A program made the translations under genes and the position numbers. Positions 10,168-17,422 of a DNA stretch of 42,647 nt are shown piece after piece. The notes under the pieces are model-generated. The model saw only the letters and a list, made by a program, of their open reading frames with translations. It was not told the DNA's origin and did no database searches. Position 1 is the stretch's first letter. Each line of letters opens with the position of its first letter. Source of the stretch: Parcubacteria group bacterium GW2011_GWC2_48_17 (GTDB taxonomy: Bacteria; Patescibacteriota; Minisyncoccia; Phycocordibacterales; UBA10002). Location of the stretch: the NCBI GenBank assembly GCA_001003605.1, contig LCPL01000007.1:1-42647 (forward strand), written 5' to 3'.

Positions 10168-10350
10168 ATGAATCTTCAATCAAAGCTTTTCCTTCTCGTC
10201 TTACTCTATGCTATGGCAGTTGCGACAGCTCTTTCGTATTATCGGTATGTCGTTCATCATGACTATCTCATAGAAGGCGACCCCGCTATGGAGGAGGGCG
10301 CGGGGGCACAAGGTGATAGCGGCGGCGTTACTCTTTCAGTAAGTGAATAA
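10168..10350 (+). CDS. Small single-TM protein, 60 aa
   Basis: The product begins MNLQSKLFLLVLLYAMAVAT, with one TM helix or signal anchor at residues 6-24. A short acidic, glycine-rich tail (EGDPAMEEGAGAQGDSGG) follows. It is the first gene after an extended -10 promoter, and its stop codon is one nt before the ATG of the methyltransferase fusion, so the two are likely co-translated. No family is recognised; a small partner of the neighbouring membrane proteins is possible. Confidence 0.6.
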   Translation: MNLQSKLFLLVLLYAMAVATALSYYRYVVHHDYLIEGDPAMEEGAGAQGDSGGVTLSVSE

Positions 10351-10351
10351 C

Positions 10352-11743
10352 ATGAGTATCCTGGACATAATCGGTATTGCGTCCGGCCTCTTGGCGTTCA
10401 GTTCATATTTTTTCTATATCCCCGCGATTCTTCAGGGAAGGACGAGACCGAACCGAGCATCCTGGTGGATTTGGGGTGGCATCGGAGCTCTTATCGTCGC
10501 AAGTTACTATGCCTCAGGAGCGCGTGGCACTATATGGGTACCACTTAGTGAAGCAATCGGCCCCGCGATCATTGCACTGCTTTCCATCAAATATGGAGAA
10601 GGTGGATGGACTCGTCTTGATAAATGGTGCCTGTTCGGAGCTAGCATCGGCACTTTTCTTTGGTGGTTCACGGACTCGGCCGTTGTCGGGCTTGTGGCGT
10701 ATCTTCTTACCGACCTCATGGCCGTTGTGCCCACGCTTCGGAAATCTTTGCACCGCCCGGAACATGAGGATCGAAATGCATGGGGCTTAACATTTGGAGG
10801 CCAGGTACTGAATTTCTTTGCTCTGGAAACATTCTCCTTTTCCCTCGCACTTTATCCTGTTTATATGATCATCACCAACGGTATAATCTTTGCGCTCCAA
10901 TTCAAAAAACGCGGGGCGAAAGCTTTTAGTTCGATCGACATCGTAAGCCAGTGCTTGTCCGACATTCCGCGTACCAGCGCTTTTCAACAGGCAATACAAG
11001 AGTCTGTCAAACCTGGCGATACCGTCCTTGAATGCGGTGTCGGCTCCGGAATCCTAACCCTATTTGCGGCAAAAGCCGGGGCAAGAAAAGTCGTTGCAGT
11101 TGAGTACGACCCATTTGTTGCTGAGGCCGCAAAAAGAGTCATCGCTGTCAATAACCAGCACACCGTTGATATGCGGATTGGTGATGGACGTTCCTATGAA
11201 TTTGAGCCAGGACTTAAATTCGATGCGGTTATCATAGAGATGCTCACGACCGGTATGATTGAGGAGTACCAGGTGGGCGTGATAAACAACCTCCACCGCC
11301 AGGGAGTTGTTAAGGACAGTACCGTATTCATCCCTTCACATCAGGACACCTTTGCTACTCTGGGTAATTTTGATTTTACCTGCTACGGATGCACGGTGCC
11401 GTTCATTCGACATACGTGGAAGTTCTATGATGCTCCTATGAAAGACTTTAAGCCATTTACCGACCAGGCTCTGCTTCATTCGGTCGATTTTTCACGGGCA
11501 ATAGCCGAAAAATTTGAAGGAACAATAGATTTCGTCGCTAACAAGAGCGGGGTAATCAATTCGGTTCGGCTCTCGAGCGTGTGCCACCCCACTCGGAATT
11601 CTTCACTTTCGGATACCCATTCACTAAACGGACCGGTTGTGATTCCAATGGAGGAGAAGCAAGTTGAAGCGGGGGAAAAAATACATTTGTCCGTCAGCTA
11701 TGTCTTTGGGGGAGGTTATGAAGGCTTTCATGCTAGTATATAA
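10352..11743 (+). CDS. Multi-TM domain fused to a PRMT-like SAM methyltransferase
   Basis: The 463-residue product has an N-terminal membrane half (residues 1-190, six to seven TM helices) with two similar units, each with a proline-centred motif (FFYIPAILQGRTRPNRASWW and VVPTLRKSLHRPEHED). This recalls PQ-loop/SWEET-like repeats; that likeness is by eye. The C-terminal half is a class I methyltransferase: SAM motif LECGVGSGILTLFAAKAGA near residue 226, acidic VEYD, then IIEMLTTGMIEEYQ near 295, which resembles the double-Glu loop of protein arginine methyltransferases. It lies between a small TM gene and a histidine kinase. Substrate unknown. Confidence 0.75.
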   Translation: MSILDIIGIASGLLAFSSYFFYIPAILQGRTRPNRASWWIWGGIGALIVASYYASGARGTIWVPLSEAIGPAIIALLSIKYGEGGWTRLDKWCLFGASIGTFLWWFTDSAVVGLVAYLLTDLMAVVPTLRKSLHRPEHEDRNAWGLTFGGQVLNFFALETFSFSLALYPVYMIITNGIIFALQFKKRGAKAFSSIDIVSQCLSDIPRTSAFQQAIQESVKPGDTVLECGVGSGILTLFAAKAGARKVVAVEYDPFVAEAAKRVIAVNNQHTVDMRIGDGRSYEFEPGLKFDAVIIEMLTTGMIEEYQVGVINNLHRQGVVKDSTVFIPSHQDTFATLGNFDFTCYGCTVPFIRHTWKFYDAPMKDFKPFTDQALLHSVDFSRAIAEKFEGTIDFVANKSGVINSVRLSSVCHPTRNSSLSDTHSLNGPVVIPMEEKQVEAGEKIHLSVSYVFGGGYEGFHASI

Positions 11744-11754
11744 GTTCTAAAATC

Positions 11755-13404
11755 ATGGCACCCGAACTCGCACTATGTTTCGCGGAGAGCGCCCGGTATC
11801 TGGTGTTTTCAAGCCATGTCCCGAAATTCATTTATTACTCGCATCTTACGGCGCTCGTCTTGTCGTTACTCATCGGTCTTTTCGTATACTTTAAAGACCG
11901 AAAAAGTCTAACAAACAAAATACTGTTCTGGAGCCTTGTGCCGTTCTTGATTTGGGTCTTTTTCAACATAATCATTTGGGCGAGCAATAGGAGTGACCTC
12001 ATCATGTTTCTGTGGTCTATACAGATTATGATAGAACCGCTTACCTATATCGGCATGTTCTACCTTGTGTATGTGTTCATCAACAAGCATGATGTTGGCC
12101 TCACGACAAAGGTCATTACCGGAATCATTTACGCGCCGCTCATCATCATCACTCCGACAATATACAGTCTTGCAGGGTTTGACCTATCGCTCTGTATTCC
12201 CATTGAATCATTCTATTCGTACTACACCTATGTACTTGAACTCTCGGCGATTATTGGAATAGCGTTCTACGCTCTTTTCCGCTACTCAAAGGAGCAGAGC
12301 ACGAATATCAAGAAAGAAATACTTCTTTTGTCCCTCGGCGTCATCGCCTTTTTGCTCGTATTCGCTTCGGGGAATATATTTGGAAGCTTGACCGACGATT
12401 GGGTCACCTCGCAATTCGGACTGTTCGGCACCCCTATCTTCGCAACCTTCATCGGATATCTCATCATTCGATACAGGATATTTAACGTTAAGATTCTTGC
12501 TACCCAAGTCCTCGTTACCTCGCTCTGGATTCTCGTGGCGTCAATATTATTTTTGCGAACGATTGACACCGTTCGAATTATTGTCGTTGTAACATCGGTA
12601 CTCCTCCTCATCCTCGGCATCTATCTGGTAAAATCGGTTAAGCGTGAGGTTGAGCAACGGGAAAAAATTGAAAAACTGGCGAAAGAACTCGAAAAAGCGA
12701 ATGAGAGATTGAAAGAACTTGACCAGCTTAAGAGCGAATTTGTGTCTATGGCGACACACCAAATTCGTGGCCCGCTTACCGCGATAAAGGGGTATGCGTC
12801 AATGATGCGTGAAGGGGACTATGGAGACATTCCCGAAAATCTGAAGGGAACGATAGATATCATCTATGAATCAAGCAACGCGCTTACTGTAATTGTGCAG
12901 GATTTCCTTGATATCTCGAACATTGAACAGGGGAAAATGAAATTTGATTTTTCCGTTGTTGACCTAAGCAAACTTGCCTACGACGTAGCCGAAGCATTGG
13001 CGCCAAACATTGAGCAGAAAGGACTTCGCCTAAAGCTGGAAATAGAGCCAGACATTGTTGTCGAGGCCGATGTGGGCAAAATGCGACAGATTATCGGCAA
13101 TCTCATTGACAACGCCGTCAAATACACCCCGAAAGGAAGTATAACGGTTAGGGTTAGGAAGCTTGACAAAACGATGCGTCTTGAAATATCCGACACAGGT
13201 GTGGGCATCAAGCCCGAAACGCTTCCGAAGCTCTTCCAGAAATTCAGCCGCGCCGAGGATGCGAGCAAGGCCAATGTGCTTGGGACAGGTCTCGGCCTCT
13301 ATGTCGCAAAGAAACTCATTGAAGCGCAAAATGGGAGAATCTCCGCGGAGTCGGAAGGGGAAGGGAAGGGTGCGGCGTTTTCAGTTGAGTTATCACTAAA
13401 ATAG
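11755..13404 (+). CDS. Membrane sensor histidine kinase, 549 aa
   Basis: Sensor kinase of a two-component system. Residues 20-300 hold about eight TM helices, resembling 7TM-type sensor inputs. A coiled linker (EKIEKLAKELEKANERLKEL) follows. The HisKA domain has phospho-acceptor His at about residue 335 (SMATHQIRGPLTAIKGY). The HATPase domain has the N box NLIDNAVKYTPKG, G1 DTGVGI, F box FQKFSRA and G2 GTGLGLYVAKKL. No response regulator is in the window, so its partner must be elsewhere. It starts 11 nt after the methyltransferase fusion and is probably in the same operon. Its 3' end is repeated at 17207-17422 and, as a stub, at 18307-18381. Confidence 0.93.
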   Translation: MAPELALCFAESARYLVFSSHVPKFIYYSHLTALVLSLLIGLFVYFKDRKSLTNKILFWSLVPFLIWVFFNIIIWASNRSDLIMFLWSIQIMIEPLTYIGMFYLVYVFINKHDVGLTTKVITGIIYAPLIIITPTIYSLAGFDLSLCIPIESFYSYYTYVLELSAIIGIAFYALFRYSKEQSTNIKKEILLLSLGVIAFLLVFASGNIFGSLTDDWVTSQFGLFGTPIFATFIGYLIIRYRIFNVKILATQVLVTSLWILVASILFLRTIDTVRIIVVVTSVLLLILGIYLVKSVKREVEQREKIEKLAKELEKANERLKELDQLKSEFVSMATHQIRGPLTAIKGYASMMREGDYGDIPENLKGTIDIIYESSNALTVIVQDFLDISNIEQGKMKFDFSVVDLSKLAYDVAEALAPNIEQKGLRLKLEIEPDIVVEADVGKMRQIIGNLIDNAVKYTPKGSITVRVRKLDKTMRLEISDTGVGIKPETLPKLFQKFSRAEDASKANVLGTGLGLYVAKKLIEAQNGRISAESEGEGKGAAFSVELSLK

Positions 13405-14431: not shown

Positions 14432-15736
14432 TTACGGTGTCAAGCGGTTCGGACCGCGATAGAGGTAGGTAACCTCTCGAACATTCCCTCTGTTGAGGAG
14501 AACCATCAGGAGTCGGGTAAGTCCGACCCCGAACCCTCCGTGCGGCGGACAGCCGTAGCGGAAAAAGTTCAGATAGTGTTCAAGCGGTGCGAGGGGTAAG
14601 CCCTTCTCGCGCGCCTGCCGTTCGAGAATCTCGATGCGGTGTTCGCGCTGTGCACCAGTCGTCACCTCAAGCCCCTTCCAGAGAAGGTCGAAGCTCCTGG
14701 TGAGATTCGGGTGGTCGGGATGCCGCATGTGGTAGAACGGGCGAACGACGATCGGGTAGTCAGTGACGAACACGAACTCGTGCCCGAACTCTTCACGGAT
14801 GTGCTCCGCGATTCCTCTTTCCCCAGCGGGGTCAAGGTCGGGAGTGTGCTCAATCGAGTGACCTTGACGGGCGAGAATGTCGCGAGCTTTCGCAAGCGGT
14901 ATCCTCGGAAACGGCAGTTTCGGAACCACAACCTCAACACCAAGGGTGTCCTTGATCGCTTTCCCGTGCCTCTCGGCGAGGCATGCTATGGTGTCGCGAA
15001 GCCAAGTTTCCTCAAGCAGCATCAGGTCTTCGTGGGAGTCCACCCAAGACACCTCCATGTCAATCGATGTGAACTCGGTATCGTGCCTAGATGTAAATGA
15101 TGGATTGGCTCGAAACACCGGCGCGACCTCAAATATACGATCAAAACCGGCAACCATCGCCATCTGTTTGTAAAACTGAGGTGATTGAGCGAGTGTAGCT
15201 TTCTGCCCGAAATACTCGAGCTGGAACAGTTCCGCCCCGGACTCACTCGCCGTGGCCATGAGCTTCGGCGAATGTATCTCGATGAAACCGTTCTCCTCCC
15301 AGAACTTCCGCATCGCTTGTTCCATTGTGGTCTGGACTTGGAACACTAAGAAGTTTTCCCGGCGGCGCAAACTGAGCATCCGCCAGTCCATCTGCAGGTC
15401 AAGCGATGACTCCGCAGTGATCGGCAATGGCGCAATTGCAATACTCGAGACGGTAACCGATTCGGCCACCACTTCAAGCCCTCCCAGTTTTACCTTGTCG
15501 TTTGCGACAACTCGGCCCACAACTTCAATGGCAGACTCTGCCGTGAGCGACGAGATGGTCGTCTTGAGCACATCGGCATCGTCTACTTTTTCGTGAAAGA
15601 CCTGCACTAAACCGGTCTGGTCACGCAGAACGACAAACTGCATCTTCTTTTGGTCACGAATCGCGTAGACAAATCCAGCAATCCTAACCTGCTCCCCGAT
15701 TCGGGCGGGGAGTTCTCTTATAAGCGTTCTTTTCAT
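14432..15736 (-). CDS. aspS: Aspartate--tRNA ligase, archaeal/eukaryotic-type (AspS2, possibly non-discriminating)
   Basis: Class IIb synthetase that activates aspartate; archaeal-type forms often also charge tRNA-Asn for amidation by GatCAB. The 434-residue product has the OB-fold anticodon domain at residues 1-100 (IGEQVRIAGFVYAIRDQKKM). The catalytic domain follows: FIEIHSPKLMATASESGAELF, the Asp-pocket motif AQSPQFYKQM, motif 2 FRANPSFTSRHDTEFTSIDME, TTGAQREHR, FRYGCPPHGGFGVG and the RLTP C-terminus. It has no GAD domain and none of the bacterial C-terminal extension, unlike the second aspS at 24187. It lies 21 nt after the AsnRS-like gene and shares its transcript. Confidence 0.9.
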   Translation of the reverse strand: MKRTLIRELPARIGEQVRIAGFVYAIRDQKKMQFVVLRDQTGLVQVFHEKVDDADVLKTTISSLTAESAIEVVGRVVANDKVKLGGLEVVAESVTVSSIAIAPLPITAESSLDLQMDWRMLSLRRRENFLVFQVQTTMEQAMRKFWEENGFIEIHSPKLMATASESGAELFQLEYFGQKATLAQSPQFYKQMAMVAGFDRIFEVAPVFRANPSFTSRHDTEFTSIDMEVSWVDSHEDLMLLEETWLRDTIACLAERHGKAIKDTLGVEVVVPKLPFPRIPLAKARDILARQGHSIEHTPDLDPAGERGIAEHIREEFGHEFVFVTDYPIVVRPFYHMRHPDHPNLTRSFDLLWKGLEVTTGAQREHRIEILERQAREKGLPLAPLEHYLNFFRYGCPPHGGFGVGLTRLLMVLLNRGNVREVTYLYRGPNRLTP

Positions 15737-15757: not shown

Positions 15758-17071
15758 TCACGGTGATATTCTTCTTCGGAACATTCTCGGAAACGGTATG
15801 GCATCCCTCACATGAGGGATGTTCAAAAGCCAGCGAATCAGTCGCTCGACTCCCATGCCGAACGCCGCGTGAGGTACGCAGCCGACCTGATGAACATCGC
15901 GGACGAACTCGTACCGAGGATCCGCATGTCTGTCTTTGTCGCGCATCCGCTCTTCAAGCATGGCAATGTCGTGAATCTTCTCGGCTGTGCCTAGAAGCTC
16001 CCCGTACCCATTGCTTGCAATGAGATCGGCGACGCGCGTGATTCGCGAATCTGTCGGATCGATGACATACGGAAACGGCTCGACCATTCTCGGTATTCCT
16101 GATACCCAAAATGGTTTGCCTATTACTTTCGAAAGCTCCTCTTCTTCTCTCGAACCAAGGCTGTTTCCGAATTCTGTCGGGAAATCGCACTTGGAGAGAA
16201 TCTTGAGTGCTTCTTCGTATGTAATCTGCGTGAATGGGGACCGCAAACCGTCGAGGCATGCGTTGCGCCCGAGTATCGTGGCTGTACGCTCAAGCTCATC
16301 TTGACTATGTTCAATGATGTACTTCATCAGGGACTCAACAAGTCCAATGATGTCGCCAAGGTTCGCCCACGCGACTTCTGCTTTGATGTGCCAGTATTCC
16401 AAGAGGTGCCGTCGACTCCGTGACTCTTCGTTACGGAAACTCGGTCCCATGTTGTACACCCGCTCGAATGCGTGTACTGCAGCTTCAAGATAATACCCCA
16501 CGCATTGCGTGAGAAAAACCTTTTCTCCGTGAATGGTCACGGAAATAGCTGTGCGGTCTTCGTAGAGCGGGACTGGCGTTAAAACGGGCGCGTCAATTGC
16601 GGTAAAATGATTCTCGTGGAACCACTGTCGCGTGTACGACATAACCGTGTCGCGAAGCTTAAGAATTGCCATTAACTTCGGATTTCGCAGATAGAGGTGG
16701 CGGTAGCTCAAAAGTTGATCCGTCAATCTCTCATCGAAAATATCGACATCTCCTCTCGGACTGGGGGAAACTGGTTTTGTCACCCCGCCAACAAGATAGA
16801 TACGTCTAACATTCACTTCTTGTCGCGCGTTTTGAACGCAGATGGTACCATTAATGGCAATCGCCGACTCGACAGGCATTCCTTTCACAAGATTGAACTG
16901 AATTTGTCCGACTTGCTGTTCTTCAATAACTGCCTGGATTGTACCCGTACTGTCGCAGACATCAAGGAAAATGACTTTTCCTTGATGTCGCTTGGCGCGG
17001 ATCCACCCAAGCAACATGACTTCGCACCCGATAGACCGGGTATGAAGGTCACTTACATAGATGTCTTTCAT
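15758..17071 (-). CDS. AsnRS-like class IIb aminoacyl-tRNA synthetase with altered active site
   Basis: The 437-residue product aligns by eye to archaeal AsnRS end to end. An OB-fold (CEVMLLGWIRAKRHQGKVIF) is followed by LLSYRHLYLRNPK, motif 2 (FRNEESRSRRHLLEYWHIKAE), VPHAAFGMGVERL and C-terminal FPRMFRRRISP. Several usually conserved positions differ: QSAQLY is QCVGYY, GSQRE is GTAEK, and RYGxPPH is QVGCVPH. It may still make Asn-tRNA, or it may be a paralog with another amino acid or acceptor. I start at the ATG at 17071, with AGGGAA 6 nt upstream, not the longer form at 17167. It is co-transcribed with the archaeal-type aspS. Confidence 0.75.
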   Translation of the reverse strand: MKDIYVSDLHTRSIGCEVMLLGWIRAKRHQGKVIFLDVCDSTGTIQAVIEEQQVGQIQFNLVKGMPVESAIAINGTICVQNARQEVNVRRIYLVGGVTKPVSPSPRGDVDIFDERLTDQLLSYRHLYLRNPKLMAILKLRDTVMSYTRQWFHENHFTAIDAPVLTPVPLYEDRTAISVTIHGEKVFLTQCVGYYLEAAVHAFERVYNMGPSFRNEESRSRRHLLEYWHIKAEVAWANLGDIIGLVESLMKYIIEHSQDELERTATILGRNACLDGLRSPFTQITYEEALKILSKCDFPTEFGNSLGSREEEELSKVIGKPFWVSGIPRMVEPFPYVIDPTDSRITRVADLIASNGYGELLGTAEKIHDIAMLEERMRDKDRHADPRYEFVRDVHQVGCVPHAAFGMGVERLIRWLLNIPHVRDAIPFPRMFRRRISP

Positions 17072-17206
17072 AACTGATTTCCCTTTCATGTGTTTGTTTG
17101 AGTGTCTCGAAGCGTCAAATACAATGAGAATAAGGGCTTTTTTGACAATGAAGCATTCCATTAACACAGTAGGTTCTTTTTATATTTTTGTCAATCTTGT
17201 GTAAAA

Positions 17207-17422
17207 GACACGGGCGTTGGCATTAAGCCGGAAACACTCCAGAAACTTTTCCAAAAGTTCAGCCGCGCCGAGGATGCGAGCAAGGCCAATGTTTTGGGGA
17301 CCGGCCTCGGTCTTTATGTCGCAAAGAAACTCATTGAAGCGCAAAATGGGAGAATCTCCGCGGAGTCGGAAGGGGAAGGGAAGGGTTCTGCGTTTACTGT
17401 TGAGCTTCCAGTCAAACAGTAA
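17207..17422 (+). pseudogene. Second copy of the histidine-kinase 3' end (fragment)
   Basis: The frame reads DTGVGIKPETLQKLFQKFSR to the TAA at 17420-17422, which is the last 71 codons of a kinase closely related to the intact one at 11755. DNA identity is very high: 17315-17386 equals 13300-13371 exactly (72 nt) and 17258-17292 equals 13243-13277 exactly. There is no start or upstream kinase sequence; the 5' side is the promoter side of the minus-strand AsnRS-like operon. Confidence 0.85.

Follow-up and report, generated by a model that had tools for sequence, protein, structure and literature searches.

A PQ-loop-like membrane domain fused to a divergent PRMT-like methyltransferase in a histidine kinase cassette of Patescibacteria

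The 42,647-nucleotide stretch of Parcubacteria group bacterium GW2011_GWC2_48_17 analysed here (the window, from genome G000) encodes a protein in which a seven-helix membrane domain, modelled with the PQ-loop/MtN3 fold, is joined to a methyltransferase that by sequence belongs to a divergent PRMT-like branch. The fusion represents one form of a modular histidine kinase cassette, in which SET methyltransferases often fill the same slot and arginine or polyamine enzymes are common. We tentatively propose that it is a membrane-tethered protein (arginine) methyltransferase which may tune a kinase that senses arginine-derived or polyamine solutes, its substrate being putative. No description of a cassette joining protein methylation, arginine/polyamine chemistry and sensing was found in the literature searched.

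Architecture of the fusion protein

The fusion reading frame is uninterrupted from an ATG at 10352 to a stop codon at 11741-11743, the mechanically listed frame starting at a GTG at 10343. Its ATG sits 1 nt past the stop of a 60-residue one-TM protein, which has no match in Pfam or NCBIfam, and a histidine kinase gene (HisKA 3e-15, HATPase_c 1e-26 in Pfam) begins 11 nt beyond it. Pfam recognizes only generic class I methyltransferase models in the second half of the fusion and nothing in the first, and the PHROGs matches are likewise generic methyltransferases only.

A search for the same fusion in other CPR genomes yielded one further copy, with 68% protein identity, in Parcubacteria GW2011_GWA2_49_9 (G003; locus L049, 2278-3675), a genome of the same genus. 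The order of small gene, fusion and kinase is common to both genomes, with spacings of 1 nt and 11/17 nt and the counterpart of the small gene at L049 2106-2276. The operon proposed in the preliminary description and its union of a transporter-like domain with a methyltransferase are both borne out. The two fusions align across the linker without a gap and have evolved under selection, the synonymous sites being saturated at a dN of 0.17 for the TM half and 0.29 for the methyltransferase half. The fusion is real but young, and it was seen in no genome other than these two in the overlapping samples searched.

Table 1. Features of the fusion gene and its operon in the window.
Feature	Coordinates	Strand	Basis and remarks
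PQ-loop-like 7TM / PRMT-like methyltransferase fusion, 463 aa	10352..11743	+	ORF list, Pfam, phmmer, AF2; ortholog in L049
Seven TM helices, predicted PQ-loop/MtN3-clan fold, residues 1-182	10352..10897	+	AF2, VIA, PDB profile search
Short positively charged linker around FKKRGAKA, residues 183-191	10898..10924	+	predicted cytosolic; AF2 helix ends at 182
PRMT-like methyltransferase domain, residues 190-463	10919..11743	+	Rossmann and putative beta-barrel, from the profile alignment
SAM-binding motif I VLECGVGSG, residues 225-233	11024..11050	+	aligned to PRMT6 VLDVGAGTG
Double-Glu loop EMLTTGMIEE, residues 296-305	11237..11266	+	phmmer alignment to PRMT6 double-E loop; alignments A2, A4
DTHSLN, position of the PRMT THW loop	11612..11629	+	alignments A2/A4, PRMT9 alignment; His/Trp replaced by SLN
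Small one-TM protein, 60 aa, MNLQSK...SYYRYVVHHDYLIEGD	10168..10350	+	ORF list; short SK-TM-YYRYxVxKDF family
7TM sensor histidine kinase, HisKA + HATPase_c; constant element of the cassette	11755..13404	+	Pfam, relatives, neighbourhoods

The membrane half was first described as having six or seven TM helices and two proline motifs, and the AF2 model built with 28 relatives contains seven (pLDDT 92.6, pTM 0.85), the motifs being TRPNRASW (P33) and VVPTLRKS (P127). In VIA searches with this model the best match is cystinosin (Z 13.9, rmsd 3.4, 187 residues aligned), and AtSWEET13 (Z 12.2) and the KDEL receptor (Z 11.3 to 9.8) follow; the top 16 rows all belong to these three families, with Z 13.9-9.8 over 168-189 residues, and the next, unrelated one scores 6.3. 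Foldseek ranks the same families first with a probability of about 1 at weak E-values of 0.01-0.5, while the sole PDB sequence matched by a profile of 12 relatives is the SemiSWEET 4rng (E 0.005). As modelled, the TM half has the 3+1+3 seven-helix fold of the PQ-loop/MtN3 clan and shares with cystinosin, PQLC2/Ypq, SWEET and the KDEL receptor the proline at the second repeat. The earlier designation as PQ-loop-like therefore stands for the fold but not for the signature, as the PQ dipeptide is missing from both repeats (FYIP in repeat 1, PY in most relatives; VVPT in repeat 2), and the Pfam PQ-loop and MtN3_slv models match neither the fusion nor two relatives. A further difference from the clan is the soluble C-terminal enzyme; two surveys of SWEET and SemiSWEET proteins make no mention of methyltransferases. 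PQ-like residues such as P33, W38, S78, D90, D121, K131 and E139 are retained in both fused copies. Since in SWEET and cystinosin the C-terminus is cytosolic, the C-terminus of the fusion, and hence the enzyme half, is by homology expected in the cytosol, and the positive charge of the linker FKKRGAK is consistent with that side. PQ-loop proteins of yeast and mammals transport basic amino acids (PMC4649669, PMC6803629).

For the C-terminal half, the top ranks of a phmmer search against PDB sequences are occupied by PRMT6, PRMT7, CARM1, PRMT1, PRMT3 and PRMT8, with E-values from 1e-10 (PRMT6). A profile built from seven Patescibacterial homologues hits PRMT7 at 1e-32 and aligns with PRMT1, PRMT8 and PRMT9 almost to its end, into the putative barrel, the PRMT8 and PRMT9 alignments extending to position 284-285 of 302 in a region where AF2 confidence is low. 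The PDB matches shown are PRMTs, then PrmA and others, GAMT being absent among them, so by sequence this half does not appear to be a GAMT. The AF2 model of the half is weak because it rests on two alignment rows, its pLDDT at best lying mostly in the range 55-75 and falling lower in the putative barrel; with it, Foldseek places PRMT6 first and VIA finds Trypanosoma brucei PRMT7 at Z 13.4 (rmsd 3.8, 146 aligned).

In A4, an alignment of six divergent sequences from the close PRMT-like branch, G229, G231, S232 and G233 of motif I, E251 of the post-motif-I segment and the Asp of the LxD helix are invariant, and E296 and E305, invariant in both A2 and A4, lie nine residues apart, which is the double-E spacing of PRMTs. 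The segment EMLTTGMIEE had been read as a post-I double-Glu loop; it does align with the double-E loop of PRMT6, a guanidine-binding element, but it comes after the strand FDAVIIE, and the post-motif-I segment, as aligned to PRMT6, is VEYD instead.

The THW loop is not kept in the six A4 members, which read DTHSLN, DTDSLN, DTSSLN, DTAALN, DTLALN and GTSDMN, a pattern of S/A/D-L/M-N without a conserved His or Trp. Likewise, YFxxY was not found before the LxD helix, where the sequence is FKKRGAKAFSSIDIVSQ, and the profile alignment shows a deletion of about 15 residues relative to PRMT7 and PRMT8 close to the dimerisation arm, where model confidence is low. Because the THW loop is replaced and YFxxY is absent, the half is, judged by its sequence, a divergent PRMT-like branch and not a canonical PRMT, which qualifies the PRMT-like label of the preliminary description; PRMT-like chemistry is plausible, and for the same reason activity on protein arginine is uncertain. 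The eukaryotic PRMT5 and FSW also lack the THW His. Overall, the protein resembles eukaryotic PRMTs (PRMT6, PRMT1, PRMT7, PRMT9) in motif I, the post-I Glu, the LxD..RT helix, the double-E spacing and a profile match through the putative beta-barrel, and besides the two lost motifs and the apparently shorter arm it is unlike them in being bacterial, fused to a membrane domain and placed within a kinase operon.

Arginine and lysine methylation of proteins has been studied mostly in eukaryotes, and no literature joining an arginine methyltransferase with Patescibacteria was found in the literature searched, which covers few subscription journals. In viral contigs, a scan with the single protein gave no PRMT relative and the A4 scan gave one distant match at 31%, A2 yielding no usable stretch.

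Unfused relatives and the kinase cassette

Members of the TM family occur on their own in many genomes and at 31 named loci, which range over Parcubacteria, Nomurabacteria, Micrarchaeota, Acidobacteria and Nostocales. Few genomes carry the methyltransferase branch: 4 of 380 in the phylum sample, some of these being more distant, and 9 of 397 in the order sample, distant PRMT-like proteins included. Both halves are present as separate, often adjacent genes in G583, G655, G002 and G012. Separate halves in relatives had been named as an observation that would refute the fusion; they are literally found, but since the halves are often adjacent in other families, the protein is a derived fusion of linked genes and is not refuted. 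The order in G583 is SpeD, small TM protein, divergent PQ-like TM protein, PRMT and kinase, and in G655 it is PQ-like TM protein, small TM protein, amidinotransferase, PRMT and kinase; the TM homology in both is weak but detected, with E-values from a three-sequence search, and PNRxSW is retained in G583. G002 and G012 each have a close PQ-like gene (46-47%) with a distant PRMT-like gene and then the kinase after it, and G113 has the PRMT and the kinase without a TM gene. By eye, three cyanobacteria carry a PQ-like 7TM gene directly upstream of a sensor-kinase-like gene of about 930 residues (L055 6911-7618, L061 6980-7612, L063 6980-7576).

With the 7TM region of the kinase as a query, matches were found in 37 of 197 related genomes, and a limited set of genes lies upstream of these kinases: the small one-TM protein (consensus MDKKSK-TM-YYRYxVxKDF, at most of the 46 kinase loci examined), a SET or PRMT-like methyltransferase and a PQ-like or EamA transporter, as well as arginine/polyamine enzymes, a GARS-like ATP-grasp protein and a protein of about 270 residues with no Pfam match. 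Seven of the eight PRMT-branch loci (G000, G003, G655, G583, G1072, G948 and G113), across several GTDB families, precede a member of this one kinase family either directly or with one gene between, the intervening gene being a GAMT homologue in G113 and a SET gene in G1072; the eighth, in G228, adjoins another membrane protein (TM273) and not this kinase. Of 38 kinases, 19 have a SET gene no more than 3.5 kb away, versus 0.21 expected from SET density (Poisson about 1e-30, a figure that ignores shared ancestry). As SET and PRMT-like genes co-occur in G1072, G002 and G012, the slots are not strictly exclusive. The SET cassettes share with that of the window the kinase family, the small protein, a PQ-like or EamA transporter and often arginine/polyamine enzymes, and differ in their lysine-type SET enzyme and in that the TM protein and the enzyme are unfused.

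Several further features of these loci were noted. Long forms of the small TM protein have a Cys-rich extracytoplasmic tail, CDPxxExCF...C (L161 2952-3290, L152 3921-4331, L136 4301-4720), possibly for redox or ligand sensing. In several cassettes the protein of about 270 residues, with the motif YTPxEEAxxEIxRR, is encoded immediately ahead of the kinase or the small protein (L159 2452-3255, without a Pfam match, L160 2069-2896, L161 2066-2941 and others). A second, related cassette consists of a multi-TM protein of about 275 residues and a protein of 91-93 residues (L092 1664-2497 and 1386-1667; L037 4732-5553 and 4441-4716), beside a PRMT gene in G228 or SET and PvlArgDC genes in G120. As candidate methylation targets, a kinase position switching from Lys at SET loci to Arg at PRMT loci was sought and no such column was found, and the small TM protein was set aside, as Arg is absent from the predicted cytosolic tail (MNLQSK) of the copy in the window.

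Arginine and polyamine neighbours

The arginine/polyamine enzymes of the cassettes comprise PvlArgDC, SpeD or a SpeD-SpeE fusion, agmatinase-family proteins, AguA/AguB, deoxyhypusine-synthase-like proteins and an AGAT-type amidinotransferase. There are 12 PvlArgDC copies in 178 genomes, of which six either adjoin a PQ-like gene (G131, G120, G088) or lie no more than a few kb from the kinase (G019, G537, G540). In G655 the gene immediately preceding the PRMT gene encodes the amidinotransferase, which matches SxtG, HsvA and human AGAT (E 1e-112 to 1e-100); in G113 the PRMT has as its neighbour a separate gene that matches GAMT at 1e-43.

SpeD is found upstream of the fusion in G003 and of the TM and PRMT genes in G583. 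No polyamine gene is adjacent in the window, the SpeD of G000 being on another contig. SpeD is stand-alone in all three genomes, and spermidine synthase was undetected in 9 of 12 genomes checked, these three included. Li et al. 2023 (PMC10407285) show that in candidate-phyla bacteria SpeD homologues which occur without SpeE can act as decarboxylases of ornithine or arginine, and the same situation in G003 and G583 is suggestive of such an activity by analogy. The clusters in that source have the same SpeD-derived or PvlArgDC enzymes in the same kind of bacteria; the word transporter is absent from its text, and no kinase linkage was noticed there. SpeD is fused to spermidine synthase (AdoMet_dc and Spermine_synth) within two kinase cassettes (L152 2816-3913; L158 3292-4443, the latter by similarity).

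Possible function and its alternatives

In the model that we tentatively prefer, a cytosol-facing PRMT-like methyltransferase would operate at the membrane within a histidine kinase sensory cassette. The 7TM half might bind a cationic, arginine- or polyamine-like solute or carry it across the membrane, while the methyltransferase half would methylate an arginine-type guanidino group of a system protein (the kinase, the response regulator or a partner) on the cytosolic side. The methylation would set the output much as CheR methylation sets chemoreceptors, with SET-domain lysine methyltransferases often occupying the same slot in relatives. CheR serves as an analogy only, being likewise a methyltransferase that tunes a histidine kinase sensory system, but it is a Glu O-methyltransferase of another family, and neither CheB nor receptor methylation sites were seen here. 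The solute, the activity, the protein target and the role in adaptation are all what we infer. The observations that speak for the model are the PRMT relationship with its invariant double-E and motif I residues, the predicted 7TM fold with its cytosolic C-terminus, the linkage of PRMT-branch and SET genes to one kinase family, the PvlArgDC and SpeD neighbours, the basic amino acids carried by PQ-loop proteins of yeast and mammals, and the PQ-like genes next to kinase-like genes in three cyanobacteria. That SET and PRMT interchange next to one kinase favours protein methylation; the lost THW and YFxxY, the small-protein tail devoid of Arg, the lack of a Lys/Arg switch in the kinase and of an adjacent polyamine gene in the window count against it, and the GAMT and amidinotransferase neighbours point equally to a small-molecule substrate.

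Such a substrate defines the main alternative, which we regard as somewhat doubtful: the PRMT-like half would methylate the guanidino group of a free metabolite (agmatine, arginine or a guanidino-polyamine), the PQ-loop-like half would move the product or precursor, and the kinase would sense it. It is favoured because of the arginine decarboxylase, amidinotransferase and GAMT neighbours, namely the AGAT/SxtG/HsvA-family gene in G655, the GAMT homologue adjoining the PRMT in G113, and PvlArgDC, SpeD, agmatinase and AguA/AguB in sister cassettes, as well as by the guanidine-binding nature of the double-E loop. However, the nearest relatives of the PRMT-like half are protein methyltransferases and not GAMT, and arginine/polyamine genes are missing from the vicinity of several PRMT or SET loci. 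We place protein methylation slightly ahead because SET enzymes, the alternative occupants of the slot, are protein (lysine) methyltransferases and many SET loci lie without a polyamine gene nearby.

It appears unlikely that the TM half serves as no more than an anchor or neighbour, with the PRMT-like half methylating general cytosolic targets and the fusion having no joint function. While the fusion occurs in just two genomes of one genus, the halves are separate elsewhere and G113 pairs PRMT and kinase without a TM gene, the PQ-like residues listed above are retained in the fused copies, the dN of the TM half is below that of the enzyme half, and the unfused halves neighbour each other in other families. 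Less likely still, the PRMT-like half could be a catalytically dead SAM-binding sensor, as suggested by the loss of the THW His and Trp, the apparently shortened dimerisation arm and an AdoMet synthetase gene adjoining one cassette (L056); against this, six divergent members all keep both catalytic Glu residues and the glycines of motif I, and PRMT5 and FSW have likewise lost the His. An assembly or frameshift artefact, conceivable for a genome assembled in 29 contigs, is already refuted by the second fusion with its ungapped linker, 68% identity and saturated synonymous sites.

Extending the protein-methylation model to Patescibacteria at large is more speculative than the model itself: SET lysine or PRMT-like arginine methylation on the cytosolic face would be linked with a 7TM transporter-receptor and with a kinase that responds to arginine-derived polyamines, receptor and methyltransferase being one protein in this genus, a transporter-enzyme that would write a methyl mark when the solute is present. 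A recurrent linkage of both enzyme classes to one bacterial kinase family would provide bacteria with a two-component system that is tuned by methylation and differs from CheR/CheB; thanks to the natural fusion, this idea can be tested in a single protein. Arginine/polyamine solutes would also be a first functional lead for a widespread, unannotated 7TM family (no Pfam match in the members tested), in cells with small genomes rich in unexplained genes.

Beyond the kinase, the window contains tandem class II aminoacyl-tRNA synthetase genes of AspRS/AsnRS type, recognized by eye from the translations (14432-15736 and 15758-17167, both on the minus strand), and many related cassettes likewise have a tRNA synthetase gene downstream, often TrpRS. 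Past these two genes, 198 bp at 17207-17404 (plus strand) are 88% identical to the 3′ end of the kinase gene in the HATPase region, which suggests a duplication or insertion beside the cassette.
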